Part shown: positions 18,726 to 33,272 of the stretch, piece after piece
Layout: each line of letters starts with the position of its first letter
Numbering within the stretch: the first letter of the stretch is position 1
Virus record (IMG/VR): IMGVR_UViG_3300034418_011681
Span: 1 to 33,311 of that record
Reading direction: 5' to 3' (one strand)
Length of the DNA: 33,311 bases
DNA from: a virus
Translations under genes and position numbers: made by a program
The notes under the pieces: generated by a model
Databases searched by the model: none
Seen by the model: the letters and a program-made list of their open reading frames with translations, nothing else
Told to the model about the DNA's origin: nothing

Positions 18726-21700
18726 TTAAAATGAGGTTACGAATGTTGCTGGCAGGTTGGTATTAAATTCATTACTTATATCATCTATCAACAAAACTCT
18801 ATTTCCAATAGACTCTGAATAATCTTGCAGAATTCTCGACTCAAAATAAATTTGATCGGACGATAAGATTTTATCAATATAGAAATAATTTTCAGTTACT
18901 AAGTCATAATCAAATAAACAATTAACATTCACCTGACTATTTAAGTCAATAACAATATCAGTTGCTTCTGACCTTTGAACAGTTGTAATGCCAGAAAAAG
19001 AATCTGGAGTAGATACTACTTGAAGATCGCCAAATTTTTTAAACCCTACTGTATGATTTAAATTGCTTACAGTAAAGAACCATTTGTCTAGAGGTATTTC
19101 ACTCTTGAGGGAATATGAAAAATATTGATAATAATCATTATCAGCAATTTTTTGAGTTGAATTATTTAAAAATCCAGTATCTTTATTCCATCCACCAATA
19201 ACTCTAGAAGATGAACTTATATCATAGTAAAATTCTAAACCACTATTCTCTTTAATAAATGCTGATGTATTTGAAGAAAGTCCTCTTATTATCTCTTCAT
19301 CTTCAATTTCGAATGCAGTTTCAACTTTTAGAATTTCATTTTTACTGTCCCAACTGACAACCTTTCCAGTTTTATTTCCAAATTTTACAACTTCTCTTAC
19401 ACTAAAATCATTTTTGACAAGTTGAACATTAAATTTTGGAAAATACTTCTCTGGTGTTACTATTCCAGAAGAGTTCTCCACATCAAATGTGCCAGGAGTA
19501 AGAGAACTGCTTAAGTATTTTTCTATAGAATATTTAATTGTTGGTAATGGTCCAGAAAGATCTACTTCATTAATTTCAAACAAGGAATAATCATATTCTT
19601 TAGAATTATATGTAATTCCAGAAGTTGTTGAAGTTCCCTCTACAATTATCTTATCACCAACTTCAAATGGGAATTCTTCCAAAGTAAAAACTTTATTTAA
19701 AGTTAAAGTAACTTCTTTTGTTGATGGATTATATGATGCTAATGATATTTTAATTCCGTTAGTATTTCTTATTGGAATTATGTCTGGAGTTGTATTATAA
19801 AAACCTTTTGTATTTTTTATAATAGTTACCTTATATTTTTCTATGTCATAGTCTAAAACTAAATCGTCAATTAACTCTCCAGTAAAACCATCTTTAACTA
19901 TTAAAGTTGGTGATTTTTTATAAAAACGTCCAACAGAAGATATTCCAACAGAAGCAAGTTTTGATAGAGGTTCTACTCTAATTGATAACGGAGCTTTTAC
20001 TCTAGGGACAATTGTATTATCTACACTGTATTCATATCCAATATCAACAATTTCAGTATTTTTTATAGAACCAACACTAGAAGAAACTGGTAAAACTATA
20101 GCTCCAGTTCCCTCTTGAGAATCTATTTCAATTATTGATGGCAGGGTTTCATATTCAAACCCTCCAGAAATTCTATTAAAACTTGATATTTTTCCTTTAG
20201 CAGTCGATGAATTTGTTGTGTACGAAATAGAAGAATTTGAAGTATTATATGTTGAAGATTCATTAGTATCACCTATACTAAAAGTAAAAGTATCTGTACC
20301 AACTCCAGATAAAGTTTTTGTTCCATAAAATACACTAGTTCTTAAAGAAATTAAGTTATTAAAGATAACTTCTTCATCTACCTTACATTCCTTCTTAATC
20401 CTAGAATTTTCTGGGTTTTGATCTGGAACCAAATTATAATAAAAATTGTCAGGGAAAGTGTTATCAATTAAAATTTCAACTTTTGCATTTGAATCTACTC
20501 CAATTATTCCAGTTTGCCTTATTTTGGAAATTTTATCAGAGTCTACTAAAAATAATCTATTTGATAAAGATTCATCAGTAAAAAACTCTAAACTAAATGA
20601 AGGTATTCTTTTTCCCAATAAAGTAGATTCTACAGATAAAGAAGAATCTGAAAGATCTAAAATAATTTTAGAATTTCTTATGATATTTAACTTTGGATTT
20701 ATTGGCGATAAAGTTCCGAAAGAAATTGATGATATAGTAACAAAAAATGGATTTTTCTTTGTTGCATCATATTGAGAATTGCACAATCTAATTCTATTTT
20801 CATCATAAACAGAAATATAATATATTTGATTGTCAGTCAACCCAGAAGAAGGTGAAGTTGAATTGTAGATTACTTTGTCTCCACTTATAAAATTGTGTGA
20901 GGGTATTCTTATTGTACTATAAGTCAAATCTATATCAGAAGAAATAAATTCTTTTTGATTGACAACTATTCTTCTATAGAAATCATTGTATTTGACCGAA
21001 TATGTTGTGGAAATTCCTGAGTAAATTTCAATATCAACTTTATCGGTTGCTTTCAATAGAGTTGTAGATGCCGTTGAAACTAAAGCTTCATTTTTGTTTA
21101 TATTGCAAAGTAAAGTATTGGTTTTTTCGGTTTTAAAACTATGATAAGTGCCAATTCCGGCACTATTAATGAATAATAGTCCACTAGATAAATCTGGGGA
21201 CTTATACTCCCCAAAAGTAGACAAACCGACTTTTACTGTAGAAATTCCTACAAAGTCCTTTCCTAAGTTTGTTATATAAAATCTATCTCCATCATTTACA
21301 GATGAAATGCTAGTTCCATCAGTTGAAACTGCTATTGGAGAACCGTTGGATGTATATTCTACAATAGTTCCACTTTTTAAATTATGATCTTTTAAGTAAA
21401 TGTATCTAGGATTGATTGTTATAGAAGTTACTCCAGATCCAGGACTTCCAAAAACTTTTAAAGATTTTTCAGTACCAAAACCGATAGACTCTACAGGATC
21501 AAAATAATATTCTCTATTGACATCATATTTAAAATCTGAATTTGGATATTCAAGAACTATCTTATTAGACTCTTCAACTAAAACAGTGGAAACTGAATGT
21601 GAGCTTATTGCAGTTGAGTTATATCCTCTAAGAACTCTAATTCTTGAAGTTGCCTCATCAACATTTAATATTTTTACTTTTTCAGATTCTAGAGTATAAA

Positions 21701-26423: not shown

Positions 26424-28328
26424 TTATCTTCTTACTAGGTCTCCATTAAAATAGCTTGATGTGAAAATGTAATTTGAACCTGAGGAATCCGAACCAGATT
26501 CTATATTGTCAGGAATCATTCTTATCTCAGCTCTATTACTATCTAGTTGTAAATAAAGATCTTGTAAACCAATAATATCATTTGATTTTGGTATTGCTGA
26601 AATCTCTATTATTGGAGTTCCTCCTGAAAGTTTTTCTGTTGAAATTATATTAAGAGCAAACGTTCTTATCTCACCTTTTATATAATTTATTGTGCCAACA
26701 TTTTCTATGAGTATTGTGGGTTCAGAATCTGAATCTAATGTAAACAAAACTAAAGTGCCAGTAGTTAAATCATTATTAGGAGAGTCGCCAAAATAAACTG
26801 GCTGTTCTACACCAGAAATAGTAAAACCGGACGATTTAATATTATATCCATCAGAATCTGCAAAAAATCTATTCCCAAAGCATATTTCATATTCTGCAAG
26901 TTGATTTGGGAATATCTTTAAGTCTCTCCTCATTTGAACTTTTGTAATATTGGAGGTTACTGATGGGTCAGAGTTATCAATTATATTTTGATATCTACTA
27001 TACTTAAATCTGGCACCATACTTATTAATCTCACTGGATCTTGAATAGTTAAAAATATTTTGAAGAATTTGTGTTCCTACGGTTTGAGGAGAAGATGTCA
27101 AGTTTTGATTGTAATATACGCTAGAGAAAGTTTCAAGATAAAGAATTTTTGCATCTAAAATTTCTGGAACTATTCCTGCTACACTATATTTTTTTAATTC
27201 TTCCTTTATATTGTCTTTAACCGCGTTTGAAACAAAAGTTCCAAATGTTGGTTTTATTGTTATAAAAACTTTACCAAACTGTGGAGGGTCTAAGTCTTCT
27301 CCACCAAATACGTTTACAGATTCTGCTTCTGGATAGATTTTAGGAACAATTACTTCATAGTCAGATGAAGTAACTGCACGATTTTGTGCAGAGTAAAGTC
27401 TTGGTGCAAAGTTTTTTATTGAAGATACAGATTCTACCTCCGAACCTCCAGTAGAACTTGATTCTGTCGCTATAATAGATATTCCGCTTCTAATCAAATT
27501 GGAACTTCCATCTACAATTCTTCCCGAGAATGTAAATGAGGTAAACCCATTACCTTCTTCGCCATTAGTTACAAGATAAGAAGCTTCGATAAAGTTGTCG
27601 TTTTCTAGTTTTGTTCCAATTACACCATCCCCAAAAATTAACTCATAACTTTGGTTTTGGACTTCTTGAATAAAGTAAACTTTTGAATTTGAGTTTACTT
27701 GTAAAATATTTGGAGCATTTATAAACTTTCTAGATGAAGTACTCCTCTGAGAGTCTCTTACACTGACTCTTAGAGTAGAAGTATCAATATTTGGGTTATC
27801 TAAAATATATTTTTGATTTGGATTATTTGAACTTACAGTAAAAGTATTTTTTGTATAAGTTCCTTCGTAGATTTGAATTGAGTCAAATATTGCAATATTA
27901 TTTACTACAGGAACGGTAATATCATCCAAAATGGAAAATACAAAATTATTTGAACCAAAAGAAGATGTAGTACAAACCAAACCTTTTTGTAGAGTTAATG
28001 TAAGTGGTTTGTTTGCAAGGTTTTCGGTATTTACGAAAAAACTTATGGTTGCTTTTGCTGCAGTTCTTGACTTTGGAACATATCCAATATTTCTTGCAAG
28101 AGATACTACATTCTCTCTAAGAGTAGCACTATCAATAAAAACCTCATTGCTAACCATATTAGCATTATATGAGGCAAGGTATGTGTTATATGCTAAAGTA
28201 TCAATAATTACTGATAGGTTAGATCCCTCAAAGTCATAGTCAGTAAAATTTGAGTTTGATCTCAAATAGTCTTTTATGCCCGTTTTAATCTGATCGAAAT
28301 CTAGATTGGTGAAGTTTACTAGTGCCAT
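26424..28328 (-). CDS. 6: gp6, baseplate wedge subunit (gpJ-like)
   Basis: A 634-residue protein (T4 gp6 is 660). The N-terminus matches T4 gp6 closely: FDQIKTGIKDYLRSNSNFTD then YDFEGSNLSVIIDTLAYNT, against T4 YDFEGSRLNVLCDLLAYNT. Further along, RNIGYVPKSRTAAKATISF and SDYEVIVPKIYPEAESVNVF fit the gp6/gpJ family core. gp6 dimers link wedges into the baseplate ring. The start codon overlaps the gp25 stop by one base (TAATG), so translation is probably coupled to gp25. Confidence 0.94.
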   Translation of the reverse strand: MALVNFTNLDFDQIKTGIKDYLRSNSNFTDYDFEGSNLSVIIDTLAYNTYLASYNANMVSNEVFIDSATLRENVVSLARNIGYVPKSRTAAKATISFFVNTENLANKPLTLTLQKGLVCTTSSFGSNNFVFSILDDITVPVVNNIAIFDSIQIYEGTYTKNTFTVSSNNPNQKYILDNPNIDTSTLRVSVRDSQRSTSSRKFINAPNILQVNSNSKVYFIQEVQNQSYELIFGDGVIGTKLENDNFIEASYLVTNGEEGNGFTSFTFSGRIVDGSSNLIRSGISIIATESSSTGGSEVESVSSIKNFAPRLYSAQNRAVTSSDYEVIVPKIYPEAESVNVFGGEDLDPPQFGKVFITIKPTFGTFVSNAVKDNIKEELKKYSVAGIVPEILDAKILYLETFSSVYYNQNLTSSPQTVGTQILQNIFNYSRSSEINKYGARFKYSRYQNIIDNSDPSVTSNITKVQMRRDLKIFPNQLAEYEICFGNRFFADSDGYNIKSSGFTISGVEQPVYFGDSPNNDLTTGTLVLFTLDSDSEPTILIENVGTINYIKGEIRTFALNIISTEKLSGGTPIIEISAIPKSNDIIGLQDLYLQLDSNRAEIRMIPDNIESGSDSSGSNYIFTSSYFNGDLVRR

Positions 28329-28729
28329 TATCGTGTCGGTAGTAATGCAAATGATAACTGTTGAGGTAAAGCTTCAATTCCAATTATATTGTATATTATG
28401 GTAACGTCAAACTGGTTACTGTCAAAATCCGGTTCTACTTTAATTTTAACCAATTCAACTCTTGGCTCATAATTTTCTATAGTATTTTTGATTTCACCTT
28501 CAATTGCAAGAGCAGATATGGAATCAATATTTTCAAATAAACTTTGTGATATCTTAGAACCAATATTTTGATTAAAAAACCTCTCACCAGGAACTGTATA
28601 TACTAGATTTCTAATAGAGCGTGCTATTGCAGTTTCATTTTTTAGTGCAATTAAGTCAAAAGTCAAAGGGTTAGCCTGAAATGTCAGACTAACATCCTTA
28701 AAACTCTTACTAACGCGCTCTAAAGGCAT
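28328..28729 (-). CDS. 25: gp25, baseplate wedge subunit
   Basis: A 133-residue protein (T4 gp25 is 132) of the gp25/gpW-like family, which bridges the sheath and the wedge. The family features are all present: NETAIARSIRNLVYTVPGER near residue 31-50, IGSKISQSLFENID, and the conserved NYEPRVELVKIKVEP with the EPR triad at about residues 92-94. The gene ends in TAATG overlap with gp6. A GATAAATA late box lies 22 bases upstream of the ATG. No strong ribosome-binding site is visible. Confidence 0.93.
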   Translation of the reverse strand: MPLERVSKSFKDVSLTFQANPLTFDLIALKNETAIARSIRNLVYTVPGERFFNQNIGSKISQSLFENIDSISALAIEGEIKNTIENYEPRVELVKIKVEPDFDSNQFDVTIIYNIIGIEALPQQLSFALLPTR

Positions 28730-32753: not shown

Positions 32754-32918
32754 TCACCAGTCAATATCCATGTCCTCAATGTATGCTTCCACCTTCTCAG
32801 TAGGTTCGAGTTTGAATACCTTTTCGAAGTCGATTTCACGGGGATTAAAATCACTCAGGACCTCCATGTCCAGGGTGATTCTTACACGACGCTTCTGTGC
32901 CATCTGATAGGAAACCAT
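32754..32918 (-). CDS. Small conserved cyanophage protein (RRVRITLDMEV family)
   Basis: The frame can be read further upstream, but the sigma70 promoter at 32952-32980 lies inside that extension, so the true start is downstream of it. The ATG at 32918 has AAGG 6 bases before it and gives 54 residues (MVSYQMAQKRRVRITLDMEV...). An ATG at 32903 would give 49 residues (MAQKRRVRI...). The body, RVRITLDMEVLSDFNPREID followed by FEKVFKLEPTEKVEAYIEDM, is of a type I recall in T4-like cyanophages: a short acidic protein with two strands and a helix. No known function. It is probably expressed early from the host-type promoter. Confidence 0.8.
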   Translation of the reverse strand: MVSYQMAQKRRVRITLDMEVLSDFNPREIDFEKVFKLEPTEKVEAYIEDMDIDW

Positions 32919-32951: not shown

Positions 32952-32980
32952 ATTGTAGGATAAATTAGGCGAACCGTCAA
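32952..32980 (-). promoter_or_regulatory. Sigma70-type promoter TTGACG-17-TACAAT
   Basis: On the minus strand a -35 TTGACG (32975-32980) and a -10 TACAAT (32952-32957) are exactly 17 bases apart, each one or two bases from the consensus. The predicted start of transcription is near 32945, giving a leader of about 27 bases to the ATG at 32918. It would be used by host RNA polymerase early in infection and probably transcribes the whole small-gene cluster down to the stem-loop at 31236. Confidence 0.78.
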
Positions 32981-33042
32981 GGGGTTTGGGAGTATTTAGA
33001 GGGGTGTGGAGTTTTATTTCGGGGTCTTGACATTTTGGGCGT

Positions 33043-33073
33043 CTTGTGATAGGACGCACGCTAAGATCACAAG
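33043..33073. promoter_or_regulatory. 8-bp dyad CTTGTGAT / ATCACAAG
   Basis: A perfect inverted repeat with a 15-base centre, 63 bases upstream of the -35. It also overlaps a smaller dyad GCGTC / GACGC. It may be an operator for a dimeric regulator or an RNA hairpin if transcribed. The half-site TTGTGA recalls CRP-type half-sites, but the spacing is too wide for a CRP or NtcA site. Confidence 0.5.
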
Positions 33074-33093
33074 GTCCAGATACATTTCCATGA

Positions 33094-33141
33094 GGATTTA
33101 GAGAGTGGTTTCTATAAGGATTTAAGGAGGTTTCTATAAGG
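33094..33141. repeat. Imperfect tandem repeat, two units of 22-24 bp
   Basis: Units at 33094-33117 and 33118-33139 both begin GGATTTA and share GGTTTCTATAA; the 13-bp GGTTTCTATAAGG occurs at 33107 and 33129. The repeat abuts the TTTTCCACA boxes and resembles iterons in layout. Confidence 0.7.
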
Positions 33142-33240
33142 TTTTCCACAGAATACACAGGGTTTTCCACACCCTTGTGGAAAAGAATAAAACTCTTAAC
33201 TATATTTTAAAATACATTTTTAATTGTTTTAATATACTAA
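33142..33240. other. Origin-like cluster: three DnaA-type boxes plus AT-rich tract
   Basis: TTTTCCACA occurs at 33142-33150 and 33163-33171 and, inverted, at 33176-33184; the last two form a perfect 9-bp dyad with a 4-base centre. From memory, TTTTCCACA is the DnaA-box form reported for cyanobacterial origins (E. coli TTATCCACA). Directly next to it, 33181-33240 is about 88% A/T by hand count. Boxes beside an AT-rich tract, plus tandem repeats on the other side, are the usual arrangement of a DnaA-type origin. No gene fits this stretch. Alternatively the dyad is a hairpin. Confidence 0.5.
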
Positions 33241-33246
33241 CAAAGA

Positions 33247-33272
33247 CAAAAAAGCACCTTTTTAGGGGTGCT
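33247..33272 (-). terminator. Rho-independent terminator for a gene beyond the right edge
   Basis: On the minus strand AGCACC pairs with GGTGCT (6 bp, 8-base loop CCTAAAAA) and is followed directly by TTTTTTG. This is a standard terminator for leftward transcription entering from the right. A TAG at 33297-33299 in frame with the last bases may be the end of that gene, but too little is visible to call it. Confidence 0.75.

Follow-up and report, generated by a model that had tools for sequence, protein, structure and literature searches.

A conserved cluster of host-type DnaA boxes in an oriE-like module of T4-like cyanophages, a candidate start site of DNA replication

The closest described systems are the origins of phage T4 and the chromosomal origin of cyanobacteria. 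The T4 oriE apparently relies on an early promoter and contains evenly spaced direct repeats whose role is unknown, and oriF and oriG consist of a promoter with an A+T-rich unwinding element no more than about 100 bp away, where R-loops are formed (PMC3016281). In a text search of this review on T4-type initiation, no mention of DnaA was found (PMC3016281). In the T4 record, oriE is annotated at 79355, which is 1.7 kb upstream of gene 6, with (-) strand direction and a primer RNA complementary to the gene 5 transcript; no DnaA-box match exists in the oriE region. The repeats of this region (L522:1903-2070) have a 24-bp period and form part of the coding sequence of gene 5, which means that they could be mere coding repeats. 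On the host side, most cyanobacteria have TTTTCCACA as their DnaA-box consensus, and domain IV of cyanobacterial DnaA binds this 9-mer in vitro (PMC4674748). In the open literature that we searched, we found no origin of replication described for any marine T4-like cyanophage, and nothing on DnaA boxes in cyanophages.

The window, i.e. the whole stretch of 33,311 bp analysed here and the full length of its record, is a fragment of a T4-like cyanophage as judged from its predicted proteins, which include T4-like structural ones (terminase small subunit, sheath stabiliser, neck and baseplate). A sequence-only reading had proposed an origin-like cluster of three cyanobacterial-type DnaA boxes within 43 bp near its end, and it turned out that three exact boxes are indeed located there. 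Box 1 lies at 33142-33150 (+) and box 2 at 33163-33171 (+), 21 bp from box 1 on the same strand, while box 3 (33176-33184, -) is convergent with box 2 at 13 bp. Boxes 2 and 3 are the left and right halves of a perfect inverted repeat, TTTTCCACA-CCCT-TGTGGAAAA, with a 4-bp gap. The proposed identity of the boxes holds as well, the 9-mer being the published consensus (PMC4674748). As had been claimed, no other exact copy exists in the rest of the window (33,311 bp searched), and since shuffles give an expectation of only 0.69 copies for the entire window, three boxes in 43 bp are far beyond chance.

The boxes belong to a module that adjoins a conserved small gene (32754-32918, minus strand, ATG at 32918, 54 aa, PHROG 12516). 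The stretch had been described as free of genes, which is right: the listed 138-aa ORF across the boxes is a long GTG-start reading and was rejected as a real gene, because homologues of this gene begin at the ATG of position 32918. A separate sigma-70-like promoter (TTGACG-N17-TACAAT; 32952-32980, minus strand) serves the small gene, so this promoter and that of the module, described below, are divergent. On the other side, a terminator-like stem-loop of the next upstream gene (33253-33272, minus strand) forms the outer border of the module. The module sits 4.4 kb upstream of gp25-gp6, where gp25 (28328-28729, minus strand) was identified via homologues and gp6 (26424-28328, minus strand) is a baseplate wedge protein by PHROG. 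Besides, a near-identical 29-bp element, GGCAATCTCAAAGTGAGTAAYTTTAATTG, occurs in four (+) copies (31565, 31973, 32299 and 32635) between successive small minus-strand genes, possibly as a shared promoter or RNA element.

A 60-bp tract of about 88% A/T had been noted next to the boxes, and a direct count agrees with it (87%; 52 of 60 at 33185-33244), making this tract a candidate unwinding element. It contains a conserved AT motif, AAATGTATTAAAAAACATA, with three mismatches in the window (33201-33219, minus strand). This motif is present once each in S-PM2, S-RIM32 and the window, generally at a distance of 13-18 or about 25 bp from the palindrome, and has a near-constant orientation relative to the late genes (+ in 21 and - in 0 among 74 relatives). 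In ten complete relatives, a 50-bp stretch of the module ranks within the least stable 0.02-5.6% of the genome by predicted stability. The two-unit tandem repeat of the sequence-only reading is present too, but with three degenerate iteron-like units instead of two, each of about 21 nt (33085-33151, plus strand; starts at 33085, 33109 and 33131, spacing 24 and 22; TRF period 22), the last of which overlaps box 1. A close relative (L122) has boxes and AT tract identical to those of the window and one 22-bp unit missing. Tandem arrays were found in 30 of 102 module regions versus 1.7% of random kb, some of these arrays being the boxes themselves. The clearest ones are those of L014, S-SKS1 and the window, whose repeats are related; otherwise the repeats vary between phages. 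L014:2672-2880 and the S-SKS1 locus (L512) contain 9 and 4.7 copies of 21-22 bp repeats that share AGGTTTATAAG and adjoin boxes, and the window's GGTTTCTATAAGG repeat is related to them.

A sigma-70-like promoter sequence, TTGACA-N17-TAGGAC (33027-33055, plus strand), points away from the late genes and into the boxes and the AT tract, and is a candidate promoter for a primer or R-loop. It is overlapped by a conserved core, GATAGNNNGCRYGCTWAGA (33048-33066, plus strand), antisense to the late genes; this core and the TTGACA at 33027 are conserved and lie just beyond 33094-33240, the stretch covered by the sequence-only reading. Among the relatives, 64 of 74 have an antisense promoter-like site, TTGACN-N16-18-TANNNT, at a near-fixed distance from the small gene, and the core that overlaps it is antisense in 46 and sense in 0. 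In L582, L543 and L592 the promoter can be read as a near-perfect consensus, TTGACA-N17-TATAAT or TACAAT. The order of the parts varies, being promoter-AT-boxes in some phages and promoter-boxes-AT in others. In S-PM2 (19177-19333; L520:2178-2334), annotated tRNA-Asn and tRNA-Leu overlap the module and look spurious; they were rejected, as ARAGORN detects no tRNA in this stretch.

We surveyed 23 complete T4-like cyanophage genomes, ten of which had been picked for having clusters with position no criterion, and 13 of the 23 contain a cluster upstream of gp25. In all ten cluster-selected genomes, which come from different genera (S-PM2, Syn9, S-RIM44, S-RIM2, ACG-2014d, S-CREM1, S-SSM5, S-E7, S-SM2 and S-RIM32), the densest cluster of the whole genome is located 3.1-7.8 kb upstream of gp25. 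Weaker clusters lie upstream of gp25 in S-SCSM1, S-BM3 and S-SKS1, and S-RSM4, S-WAM2, S-SCSM2R and the contig L631 have promoter or AT parts and no exact boxes; six of the 23 (SynMITS9220M01, RN05-S, P-SSM2, ACG-2014f, S-T4 and S-H34) received no assignment. In several phages, two box clusters 0.25-1.05 kb apart resemble a bipartite origin: S-RIM32 (60.8/61.9 kb), S-RIM44 (58.9/59.9 kb), ACG-2014d (36.8/37.7 kb), S-CREM1 (87.8/88.4 kb) and the contigs behind L012, L098, L101, L104, L112 and L123. The same DnaA-box palindrome is also present in contigs that encode ribonucleotide reductase or carry other genes that are not T4-like. These are L008, L059, L121 and the similar, GC-richer contigs of L042 and L045; L008 resembles cyanophage S-CBS4 from a separate phage group.

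Relatives were also gathered via the neighbouring small gene, independently of the boxes and with the same definitions for both of the resulting sets, which may share near-identical loci. In set 1 (37 non-redundant), the 22 kb upstream of the small gene contain 28 exact boxes and the 171 kb elsewhere contain 0; in set 2 (74 non-redundant), 69 lie in 44 kb upstream versus 5 in 284 kb elsewhere, and 28 of the 74 loci have boxes. The region upstream of the homologous small gene, where the sequence-only reading would have the arrangement sought in related phages, is where the boxes are conserved. In a third collection, keyed by gp6, most clusters and the antisense core are found at the same position. 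About two thirds of the relatives have no exact boxes, and because boxes exist in about a third and the antisense promoter is far commoner, the boxes are an add-on to the module and not the module itself. A skew change had been named as another sign of a replication start, and here the result is negative: the extremes of cumulative GC and TA skew are not at the cluster, and the module shows no skew switch or inflection, which is a weak test as the genes of these phages are mostly on one strand.

The spacing of the boxes follows the helical turn. In the surroundings of the non-redundant viral palindromes, boxes on the same strand are mostly spaced by 11/12, 21/22 or 42 bp and convergent ones by 13 and 23, divergent pairs stand at 19 in 13 of 16 cases, and the palindrome gap is 4 in 52 of 88; the coherence with a 10.5-bp period is 0.69. 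For the gene-keyed sets, convergent pairs are at 13/14, 23-25 and 33/34, and the same-strand coherence is 0.76 (n=27, including related loci that are incompletely independent), a value reached by 0 of 20,000 random sets. The window, with 21 bp direct and 13 bp convergent, agrees with this phased pattern; its direct spacing of 21 bp is the one seen most often in relatives, and it also turns up frequently at cyanobacterial dnaN loci. There, the coherence is 0.79, with spacings such as 11, 21, 41-43 and 51-53 and divergent pairs at 18/19. Clusters of TTTTCCACA exist at several of the dnaN loci that we fetched (L350, L380, L384, L403 and L407), and candidate clusters lie away from dnaN in L358 and L359; many other fetched dnaN loci have no such cluster in their vicinity, and small-genome, picocyanobacteria-like genomes have few or degenerate boxes around dnaN. 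Of 390 cyanobacterial genomes, 42 contain an inverted box pair whose gap is 2-14. Unlike in phages, the scan of bacterial genomes gave no favoured palindrome gap (43, 31 and 45 matches for gaps of 3, 4 and 5), so most of these bacterial matches look like chance.

Some box-less relatives contain inverted repeats, ATTCTCAATAA..TTATTGAGAAT or GTGATAATGATAAGAATTAGTATCA, where others have DnaA boxes. The carriers are L524, L543, L544, L559 and L598 as well as L582, L592, L593 and L528, whose repeats precede the small gene by about 190-430 bp. We take these repeats to be like Fur/Zur sites. In the two gene-keyed sets, 41 loci have DnaA boxes, 18 have Fur/Zur-like repeats and 0 have both, an exclusion that is partly circular in set 1, where the Fur-like motifs were chosen by eye in a mostly box-less list. 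For this reason only set 2 is independent, and it gives a one-sided p of 0.03.

Taken together, a real and conserved cluster of host-type DnaA boxes is contained in an oriE-like module of T4-like cyanophages. We hold with slightly better than even confidence that this cluster serves as the DnaA-binding portion of a conserved oriE-like replication-initiation module, which would work as a transcript-assisted origin. Starting from the boxes, their spacing, the AT element, the promoter-like site and the synteny, we infer the following course of DnaA binding, transcription, R-loop formation and origin activity. Early in infection, host RNA polymerase would start at the sigma-70-type promoter (33027-33055), and its transcript, leading away from the late genes, would cross the boxes and the AT-rich tract and could remain annealed there as an R-loop primer, as in T4 oriF and oriG. 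Where boxes exist, host DnaA may bind them in helically phased order, as in cyanobacterial oriC, and help to open the adjoining AT tract or keep it open, and the opened tract would let the phage helicase, primase and polymerase load. The best reading of the distribution is that about a third of the phages may recruit host DnaA in addition; the boxes are facultative.

The DnaA-type origin proposed by the sequence-only reading survives in part. Box identity, syntenic conservation, oriC-like geometry and the AT element speak for it, and the skew and the presence of boxes in only about a third of relatives speak against it; the roughly two thirds of relatives with no exact boxes are the main weakness of a DnaA-assisted origin. 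Other points against it are the T4 oriE region, which is devoid of DnaA-box matches, the few or degenerate dnaN boxes of small-genome, picocyanobacteria-like genomes, and the variable order of AT element and boxes. A further variant is a hybrid origin, primed by an oriE-type transcript, whose modular initiator slot has taken over the DnaA boxes of the host chromosome and holds them in some lineages and Fur/Zur-type sites in others. We regard this version as possible but tentative; if true, it would wire viral replication to different host DNA-binding proteins.

Sequence alone cannot separate an origin from a regulatory or a titration site. Since the Fur/Zur-like repeats stand at the position of the boxes, a regulatory slot fits as well as an origin does: DnaA, or elsewhere a Fur/Zur-family protein, beside a strong early antisense promoter would tune a non-coding RNA or the divergent early genes, and no replication would start here. 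The site is flanked by divergent sigma-70-like promoters, the two kinds of motif never occur together, as expected for interchangeable operators, and S-BM3 has genes downstream of the antisense promoter. Most of the inspected phages, however, have no gene downstream of this promoter near the boxes, which are moreover accompanied by an AT-rich low-stability element and tandem arrays, and T4 oriE is matched in position and orientation; we consider a purely regulatory role rather unlikely.

Still less probable is that multiplying phage genomes absorb host DnaA and thereby halt initiation on the host chromosome. The phage boxes are perfect consensus, whereas small-genome cyanobacteria have few or degenerate ones by dnaN, and phages commonly have two clusters; but the boxes per genome are few, and titration needs no fixed position, helical phasing, promoter or AT element. 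We are equally doubtful that a phage protein recognises the same 9-mer, or that the inverted repeat functions by folding into a hairpin in DNA or RNA. The palindrome with a 4-bp gap is the commonest arrangement, but in a set that was selected for palindromes, and many clusters are made up entirely of direct repeats (S-RIM44, L572, L591), whose helical phasing resembles that of host dnaN loci. As for the hairpin, an intrinsic terminator at the box palindrome was rejected, because the T and A runs flank the palindrome the wrong way round, and Rfam contains no known RNA matching at the site.

In conclusion, an origin function of the module is likely, and the module is a strong candidate for the start of DNA replication in T4-like cyanophages. 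It forms one small conserved address, which can be tested in cultured S-PM2, Syn9, S-SSM5 and S-RIM2; if the proposal is true, DNA synthesis of abundant ocean phages is tied to the host's own initiation protein.

Compared with known systems, the module shares 21-22 bp iteron-like repeats, DnaA boxes and an AT-rich tract with iteron plasmid origins, but no Rep protein was recognised beside it and the repeats are scarcely conserved between phages. With the cyanobacterial oriC by dnaN it has in common the TTTTCCACA boxes and their spacings (direct 11, 21, 41-43 and 52/53, divergent 18/19), whereas it is accompanied by neither dnaN nor dnaA, has fewer boxes and includes an antisense phage promoter. 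Of the marks of an oriC-type origin, a cluster of species-type boxes, helical phasing and an adjacent AT-rich element of low predicted stability are found in the sequence; we do not class the module as DnaA-dependent, because the skew inflection is missing and the binding of host DnaA is something we infer. As in oriF and oriG, a promoter is followed by an AT-rich element, but the promoters of these two are MotA middle promoters, and DnaA boxes have not been described for them, while the cyanophage promoter resembles a plain host sigma-70 one. T4 oriE lies inside gene 5 with its repeats in the coding sequence, whereas the cyanophage module is intergenic and its repeats are host-type DnaA boxes. 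Both have the oriE-type location upstream of gene 6. The promoter-like site of the module would, as an early sigma-70-type promoter, give an RNA antisense to the late genes as in oriE, and the degenerate iteron-like units of the window and the arrays of some relatives may correspond to the direct repeats of oriE; in place and orientation the cyanophage module matches T4 oriE.
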